A stretch of DNA of 32,391 bases from Candidatus Ozemibacter sp. GTDB taxonomy: Bacteria; Muiribacteriota; Ozemobacteria; Ozemobacterales; Ozemobacteraceae. The notes under the pieces are model-generated. The model was given only the letters and a program-made list of their open reading frames with translations. It did not search any database and was not told the origin of the DNA. Below, piece after piece: positions 19,024 to 21,435 of the stretch. The first letter of the stretch is position 1, and every line of letters starts with the position of its first letter. Where the stretch lies: assembly GCA_030446435.1 (NCBI GenBank), contig JASURT010000014.1, forward strand, positions 1 to 32,391. Direction: 5' to 3'. The position numbers and the translations under genes were made by a program.

Positions 19024-21435
19024 ATGACATTCAAGAAAGCTTCGTTAGTCTCTTTACTGATGGTTCTGATTTTATCAGCTTCGGCCTTTGCCGGTTATCT
19101 GGTTTCTCCTAAGGGTGATTTGCCTCTTGTTTCACAAAAAATCAGGGTCGAAATCAAAAACCAGGTTGCCGTAACCACCCTCGAACAGATTTTCTACAAT
19201 CCTCACGATGTTACCATTCAACCCAACATTCGTTTTCCCATTCACGAGAAAGCTTCAGTCCAGGGGTTTTCTCTGACTGACAGCAACGGGCAGACCTATG
19301 AAGGAACAATAGAAGAAACCAACCAGGCAACAAAAGAATTCAATGAAGCCAAAGAAGAAGGCATGATGCCGGCCATGGCAGTTCAAAAAAAGCCTGGCGT
19401 TTTTGAAACCAGCATCGGTGCGATTGGCCCAAATTCACGGGCCACAGTAGTTATTGAATACAGCGAAATCCTGCCTTACAAATCCGGAAAAATCAGCTAT
19501 TCACTGCCTTTTAACGTATCGAGCTGGCAGAAAAAAGAACTCGATCAGGTCAGCGTGCAAATCAGCGTCGCCGACCAGAAAGAAATCGTATCTCTGATCT
19601 CTCCTTCACACGATATATACGCCCAGAAGGTCGACGCAAACATCTGGCAGGCCAATTTTGAACGTAACAATTTTTTACCAAACAAAGATTTCAGTCTTGA
19701 TTATGAAGTTAAAGCCGATGAAATGGCAGTCAATTTTCTTTCAACCCGACCTGACAGCGAAAAAGACGGCTATTTCGTTCTTATGCTTTCACCTCAGGAA
19801 GTAATCGACCAGACTGACATCGCCGATCGCGACATAGTTTTCATTATGGATACCTCGGGAAGCATGTCAGGTAACAAGCTTAAACAGACTAAAGCCGCTT
19901 TTGATTTTTTCGTTAACAAGTTGAACGAAAATGACCGGTTCGGCATCGTCGATTTTTCTGATTACGCGAAAAGCTGGAATCAAGAACTGACTCAGGTTTC
20001 AGATAAAACCCGCAGATTCGCGTCAGAATATATCGGTCGACTTCACGCCACCGGCGGCACCAATATTCATGAAGCCCTGATGAAAGCTCTTTCGTTTTTC
20101 GGACCAGACGAAAACCGCACCAGAGCCATAATCTTTCTCACTGACGGAGAAGCCAGTGCGGGTATAACCTCGACCCCAAGAATTGTTGAAGATTTCAAAA
20201 AGGCGAACAGTCTCAAGGTCAGAACCTTTACCCTTGGCGTCGGACATGGAGTCAACCGCAGTCTGCTCGGTCAGATCGCAATGGAAAACCGTGGCGAAGC
20301 TCTTTATCTCGACGCCCGTGCCAATCTCGATACAGAATTGAAAGGTTTTTACCAATCGATTAGCACCCCCCTTCTGGTCGACCTGAAACTTGATTTCGGC
20401 GACATGCAGATCAGCGAATGTTTTCCTGAAGAATTGCCCAATGTTTACAAAGGAACCCAGCTGGTAGTTACCGGTCGCTATAAAAGCGGTGGAAACGCGG
20501 CTATCAAGCTTTCGGGCATGCTGAATTCTTCAAAGAAAGAATTTCCGATCGAAGCAAGCTTTGTCGAAAGTTCTTCAGACAACCGTTTCGTCGCCAGATA
20601 CTGGGCCCGAACCAAAGCAGACGAGCTTATGAAGCAGATCAAAGCCTTCGGTGAAAAACCCGAGCTTAAAGAACAGGTAATCAAACTCAGTAAAGAATAC
20701 CAGTTCGCTACTCCATATACTTCTTTCATCGCAGTTTCAACACAGCAGGTTCCGCAAATCAAGGCCGAAAGCAACAAAAGCCACACTGCAGCCTATGCCA
20801 ACATCAGAAATTCAGCCAAAGCTTCAAAAAGAGTTGTGGTTAAGAAAACCAAAGCTAAAAGCCTTTCGCTTTGGGGCGCTGCCGGCTTCGTTCCTTTCGC
20901 CGTGGCAATTCCGAACTTCAGAAAAGCCAGAGAACAGTCCCGTGTAAAAGCATGCTATGCCAATATGCGTGTTCTGATGGGCGCGGTCGAGATGTATAAC
21001 ATGGATCATACAGATCAGATGACCGTTCTTACCGACAGAGAAATAGACCTTCTCGTAAAAGAGAAATACTTAAAGTCGCAGATTACCAGGCCTGAAACTG
21101 GGTGTAACTATGGTACCATCGGCGATTTAAGCGGCACCGGTATGGTTTGCTGTTCTCTTCACGGATCAGTTTCAGAAGAGCTGCCTGAAAAAGCGACAGC
21201 CATTTATTCAGATGGCGCAGACGGCTACGTAAGTCAGATCTCCATCAAAGAACAAACACCATGGACCACCCGAATCTGGAACGATTATCTTGCCGATTTT
21301 CTTAACTATGCTCTCAATATACCATTGTTCATTCTCGGGCTGGCATTCAGCCTTTACGTGGTCTGGCGGATTTTAATTTTCCCGTTCAAACTTGTTGATG
21401 CACTTATCAGATCAGGCAGACACGGAAAAGATTAA
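19024..21435 (+). CDS. VIT and VWA domain protein with an internal pilin-like domain and C-terminal TM helix
   Basis: AAAAGGAGAG RBS; signal peptide; VIT region [88 protein letters not shown]; C-terminal hydrophobic helix. Confidence 0.9.
   Translation: [803 protein letters not shown]

Follow-up and report, generated by a model that had tools for sequence, protein, structure and literature searches.

Von Willebrand factor A-type (VWA) domains found on pili are adhesins or force sensors, as in PilB of Streptococcus sanguinis (PMC8179133), PilY1 (PMC9210963) and CpaL of Caulobacter crescentus (PMC12607857). Both modular pilins and fusions of VWA with a pilin have been described before, always with an N-terminal class III signal. 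The survey of modular pilins was restricted to proteins bearing IPR012902, an N-terminal motif (PMC8179133), and was therefore unable to find proteins of the type presented here. The protein in question, hereafter VV, is encoded in a 32,391-nucleotide stretch (the window) of Candidatus Ozemibacter sp. (GCA_030446435.1, contig JASURT010000014.1) and consists of a VIT-VWA body, the head of a type IV pilin and a C-terminal transmembrane (TM) helix. Its head derives from a pilin and, over seven lineages, resembles the major pilin PilA of its own lineage more than the PilAs of others.

Like VV, PilB unites a pilin module and a VWA domain with a metal ion-dependent adhesion site (MIDAS) in one protein, but in VV the VIT-VWA part precedes a C-terminal pilin head whose assembly helix is gone. 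CpaL, proposed as a surface sensor, also joins a pilin-like module to a VWA domain; unlike in VV, the pilin module is that of an N-terminal minor pilin, a prepilin cleavage site may be present, and the protein has been modelled at the pilus tip. In PilY1/PilC the VWA domain is tied to adhesion and force sensing of the type IV pilus, and PilY1 carries a beta-propeller at its C-terminus and lacks a pilin head; Pfam gave no match to the PilC beta-propeller in VV. In the usual modular pilin a module is grafted on a subunit that can still be built into the filament, whereas VV is the reverse, a pilin head grafted on a non-pilin. Our literature searches on Riflebacteria pilins, on pilins with VIT and on fused pilin-like domains returned no description of detached pilin heads, of fusions of this kind or of any Riflebacteria pilin.

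Origin of the Pilin Head and Loss of the Assembly Helix

Residues 624-717 of VV are 65% identical to a prepilin of the same genome encoded on contig C71 (E-value = 3e-38), which rules out a chance resemblance. Orthologs of the C71 prepilin in related genomes sit in a pilB-pilT-pilA-pilD cluster, which identifies it as PilA, the major subunit of a type IVa pilus that can retract. Each of the 24 genomes of the class has prepilin peptidase and secretins. The small pilin heads of ComGC, GspG and PilA are homologous to the VV head, which is detached from the class III signal and alpha1N and embedded elsewhere; the ComGC profile matches it with an E-value of 0.0026, below the curated cut-off of that profile. 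AlphaFold predicted alpha1C at 632-661, alpha2 at 671-679 and strands at 696-699 and 707-710 (pLDDT, the per-residue model confidence, 92-98). The original prediction, made from the letters of the window, had quoted this segment correctly (residues 613-716, 20860-21171, forward strand) and had aligned it with the prepilin of the window itself. The pilin relatedness holds, but that prepilin is a distant relative (15.8 bits) and the close parent is PilA on the other contig.

The 24-residue N-terminal segment of the prepilin is replaced in VV by a stub, K-x-SLWGAxGFxPxAxxxPN, which is conserved among orthologs. The GFTLIE cleavage site is absent from the stub in 13 of 13 orthologs, and both Glu5 and the hydrophobic alpha1N are missing from that of VV. 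The maximal hydropathy of the stub over 19 residues is 1.1-1.5 (1.4 in VV) vs. 3.0 in PilA, and the model predicts only a 6-residue helix within it. The missing site and the degraded helix had both been pointed out originally, and rightly so. Additionally, the N_methyl domain (PF07963) had no Pfam match in VV, whose N-terminus is a Sec-type signal peptide. By its defining features, as far as they can be read from the sequence, VV is not a pilin. Since the cleavage site, Glu5 and the hydrophobic alpha1N are lost and the stub stands in their place, it should not polymerise into a filament. It is accordingly hard to credit VV as a modular minor pilin assembled into the pilus in the manner of S. 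sanguinis PilB or Caulobacter CpaL: it shares both of their ingredients, a VWA domain and a pilin module, yet has no class III signal peptide, Glu5 or alpha1N, and its pilin part is C-terminal and anchored through another TM helix.

The order VIT-VWA-head-TM was found in about 14 genomes from several genera of one Riflebacteria family, at full length in G002, G023, G020, G018, G009, G013, G012, G008, G011, G006, G005 and, as a second copy, G019, and split by contig ends in G019, G021 and G022. Because the same stub and the same TM context recur in 13 orthologs, the fusion is, on the alignments, ancient. A frameshift, a chimeric metagenome-assembled genome (MAG) or a recent accident was ruled out, as the 13 orthologs with this architecture span several genera and more fragments lie at contig ends. 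The ratio of nonsynonymous to synonymous substitutions (dN/dS) in the head ranges from about 0.07 (G011-G013) to 0.17 (G011-G012), similar to that of the VV body, and by this estimate the head is under purifying selection.

The Head Resembles the PilA of Its Own Lineage

The PilA of each genome was defined as the best prepilin match to the head of the window's genome (G000); likeness to the genome's own VV head played no part in the choice. Across 13 genomes, the VV head is 64.3% identical to its own PilA and 55.4% to the PilAs of others (permutation p = 5e-5). When a single genome stands for each of the seven lineages, the values become 64.2% vs. 54.5% (p = 2e-4), and the own PilA ranks first in six of the seven. 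Between lineages, VV heads are only 58% identical among themselves, less than to their own PilA, and PilAs 59%. Head and PilA have peculiarities in common, such as the variants YANMR/FANQR/SNIR, IVPAE in one clade, NYLKGGIN in both proteins of G008 and, in both proteins of G009, a cysteine shift to CPESGG. The tracking of the own PilA is strongest at residues ~662-689, namely the end of alpha1C, alpha2 and the YLK...PE loop. In the phylogenetic tree, VV heads do not form one clade among the PilAs (0% of bootstraps, approximately unbiased test p = 0.03), and several of them group with PilAs of the same lineage.

A VIT-VWA paralog without a head (33% identity) coexists with VV and served as control. 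Comparison of the VV body with the body of this paralog in the same genomes gave an own-genome excess of 0.001, with windows of 85 columns ranging from -0.018 to 0.016. The tracking of PilA by the head is therefore not accounted for by composition or shared ancestry. Compositional bias was ruled out on the same ground. The own-PilA excess of VV heads is 0.106, compared with 0.066 for heads in a family of 1866-aa-type proteins (see below) and 0.047 for other architectures.

The likeness could also have arisen without any function, if old gene conversion or domain replacement by PilA sequence had neutrally renewed the head in each lineage. The tracking at genus level with none within genera, and the small groups of VV heads beside same-lineage PilAs in the tree, are what such concerted evolution would leave. 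However, the head and its own PilA now share no more than 59-70% of their nucleotides, and their shared residues use identical codons just as often as codon usage predicts, so there has been no recent gene conversion. For the same reasons a silent donor cassette for pilin variation, as in Neisseria, was rejected as a present-day process. Moreover, the head is under purifying selection, the conserved stub and the TM context were never overwritten, and neutral replacement accounts for the likeness but not for the retention of the head; we regard it as a rather unlikely account. Whether by replacement or by co-evolution, each lineage has retained a PilA-like head in VV between flanks that stayed unchanged.

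A Proposed Tethered Pilin Mimic

The likeness of the head to the PilA of each lineage suggests that VV works by resembling the pilus. We therefore favor, with a confidence that is evenly balanced, the reading that VV is a tethered pilin mimic whose VIT-VWA module is thereby docked on the pilus or on the machine that builds it. Because of the Sec-type signal peptide and the basic tail after the TM helix, the VIT-VWA part and the head probably lie outside the cytoplasm. The secreted module, similar to the inter-alpha-trypsin inhibitor heavy chain (ITIH), would be anchored in the inner membrane by the C-terminal TM helix, and the PilA-like face would be held just above that membrane, level with the heads of unassembled PilA. 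The head could then bind the partners of PilA, i.e., PilA itself, the base of the filament or the assembly machine, and docking would place a metal-binding VWA domain for adhesion or force sensing at the pilus machine, possibly in cooperation with the protein of the neighbouring gene g338. We infer the pilus link from evolution, because the head tracks its own PilA, and adhesion or sensing from the VWA domain. Of the original prediction, the membrane-tethered VIT-VWA protein with a pilin head stands; docking or mimicry was a guess at that time and has gained indirect support from the tracking of PilA, with the paralog control flat. If the head does dock on the pilus, it would represent a new principle for attaching proteins to type IV pili, and it provides a testable prediction of pilus partners in Riflebacteria, an uncultured phylum for which no cultured model appeared in the sources that were searched.

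Several observations weigh against docking on the pilus. The VV gene lies outside the pilus gene cluster. While the AlphaFold model of the head has the alpha1C/alpha2/beta elements expected from the original prediction, a Foldseek search of PDB with a 208-aa construct that included the linker and the long TM helix besides the head returned no significant hit, hence no pilin, and the fold of the head therefore rests on sequence homology and secondary structure. The 36 heads of other architectures track PilA more weakly, some of them not at all. Between species of one genus there is no tracking. This pattern agrees with slow co-evolution or with old, episodic events in which PilA sequence replaced the head, and is what occasional old domain replacement, rather than continuous co-evolution, would lead one to expect. 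Finally, the main test comprises seven lineages, and the genomes are draft MAGs, mostly from one family.

Detached Heads across the Phylum

A profile built on the head alone found heads in 39 of 40 genomes of the phylum, with 8 in the window's genome, 18 in G018 and 21 in G020, so the single fusion of the original prediction has become a phylum-wide family of detached pilin heads. Among 17 head-bearing open reading frames examined in G018, only two have a canonical prepilin N-terminus. The other carriers include small proteins with a signal peptide or lipoprotein-like start, proteins with a zinc ribbon, a TM helix and a head, secreted proteins with two or three heads, a second VIT protein (704-723 aa), proteins of ~1000 aa and a multi-TM protein of 1845-1935 aa that most genomes encode. 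The ComGC profile recurs among them. Detection through the head thus reaches proteins that are invisible to surveys demanding an N-terminal prepilin motif.

Concerning individual carriers, an 1866-aa protein on contig C254 of the window's genome (L010:9272-14869, reverse strand) has ~10 TM helices with the head in the middle. The TM helix that precedes this head is still pilin-like, and homologs of 1784-1935 aa exist in most genomes of the class; neither it nor most other head carriers have a Pfam match. L012:4545-6035 (forward strand), L094, L095 and L101 are secreted proteins of ~500-570 aa that bear a pair of heads, the second of which lies at the very C-terminus, and L174 of G015 is a 374-aa protein with three head matches. 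L011:1422-1946 (reverse strand), L100 and L103 are small proteins in which a head is combined with a TM helix and a zinc ribbon of cytoplasmic type, the TM helix being in some a near-intact pilin alpha1N; proteins of this kind are possible intermediates between prepilins and detached heads. The rumen-type genus of G015 and G016 has 44 head matches in each of these two genomes, many in proteins of 170-210 aa in which the head lies between a signal or TM segment and a TM helix; the expansion in these host-associated Riflebacteria is striking. The public record L044 (DYKG01000031.1) bears the title Candidatus Methylomirabilis sp.; by content, however, it belongs to the Riflebacteria genus of the window and is probably a mislabelled MAG.

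The docking idea can be extended, tentatively, to these proteins: the PilA head may be a general recognition module in dozens of unrelated surface proteins per genome, matched to the PilA of each lineage through docking, with the pilus as an organising hub for VWA, multi-TM and secreted proteins alike. We consider this possible, although short of probable. The same variety of contexts (lipoprotein-like, zinc ribbon with TM, two- and three-head secreted, 1866-aa multi-TM) and the 44 matches in each of the two rumen genomes would also suit a general extracytoplasmic domain of pilin origin, reused for binding proteins or ligands with no link to the pilus. Such a pilus-independent domain is not expected to stay closest to the PilA of its own lineage, and we find this explanation somewhat unlikely for VV. 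A third use of the head could be as a sorting or retention tag read by the pilus or type II secretion machinery, analogous to PEP-CTERM, LPXTG and further sorting domains at the C-terminus. Many unrelated secreted proteins have the head at their extreme C-terminus, and VIT-VWA proteins elsewhere bear dedicated sorting signals (TIGR03788, XrtN and MSEP-CTERM families). Yet the head occupies an internal position ahead of TM helices in VV and in the 1866-aa protein, and near the N-terminus in some carriers, which makes a sorting role quite improbable.

Layout of VV and Neighbouring Genes

The VIT-VWA identity given to VV in the original prediction is supported by Pfam (Table 1). The MIDAS (D276/S278/S280/T346/D374) is intact and invariant in 23 homologs. 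VV belongs to the VIT-VWA (ITIH-like) proteins, having a VIT domain, a VWA domain with MIDAS and an ITIH-like predicted fold: Foldseek matched the full-length model best to VIT-VWA and VWA folds, and the body has the predicted fold of inter-alpha-trypsin inhibitor heavy chain 1 (PDB 6fpy, E-value = 1e-40), a plasma protein of eukaryotes that has neither a pilin head nor a TM anchor. The closest named family for the body is the marine sortase target TIGR03788 (residues 170-587, E-value = 1.2e-85). VV remains below the curated cut-off of this family (288 vs. 552 bits), and LPXTG is absent from its sequence, the pilin head and the TM helix being present instead. The linker before the stub is highly variable in length between orthologs. 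The head ends in the motif C-x-x-HG and is followed by the expected TM helix (hydropathy of 2.27 at residues 768-786), although not directly, as a beta-hairpin is predicted in between (~726-743).

Table 1. Coordinates of VV, its parts and neighbouring genes in the window.
Feature	Coordinates	Strand	Basis
VV (VIT-VWA-pilin-head-TM protein), 803 aa	19024..21435	+	Open reading frame and translation; orthologs in ~14 genomes
VV signal peptide, residues 1-23	19024..19092	+	Hydrophobic N-terminus; helix 2-27 in model
VV VIT domain, residues 36-146	19129..19461	+	Pfam PF08487, E-value = 2.3e-23
VV VWA domain, residues 270-429	19831..20310	+	Pfam PF00092, E-value = 2.2e-21
VV linker, residues 576-612, mostly disordered	20749..20859	+	pLDDT ~30 at 580-603
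VV conserved 19-residue stub, residues 613-631	20860..20916	+	Alignment of 13 orthologs; hydropathy
VV detached pilin head, residues 632-716	20917..21171	+	PilA identity; ComGC profile; model
VV beta-hairpin extension between head and TM helix, residues 717-746	21172..21261	+	Model strands 726-729 and 738-743
VV C-terminal membrane helix with basic tail, residues 747-799	21262..21420	+	Hydropathy; helix in both models; kept in orthologs
g338, 338-aa membrane and coiled-coil protein, probable operon partner	21512..22528	+	Conserved neighbour
Separate minor prepilin of the window, GFTLIEL present, start approximate	24935..25309	+	N_methyl PF07963, E-value = 7e-9

The gene g338 lies downstream of VV in all 10 other genomes examined, with two genes between them in G009. 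It has no Pfam match above cut-off and is a candidate functional partner of VV. Further downstream, the minor prepilin is followed by an ankyrin-repeat protein (24935-26584), and the order of both with the VV gene is conserved in G002, G018 and G020.
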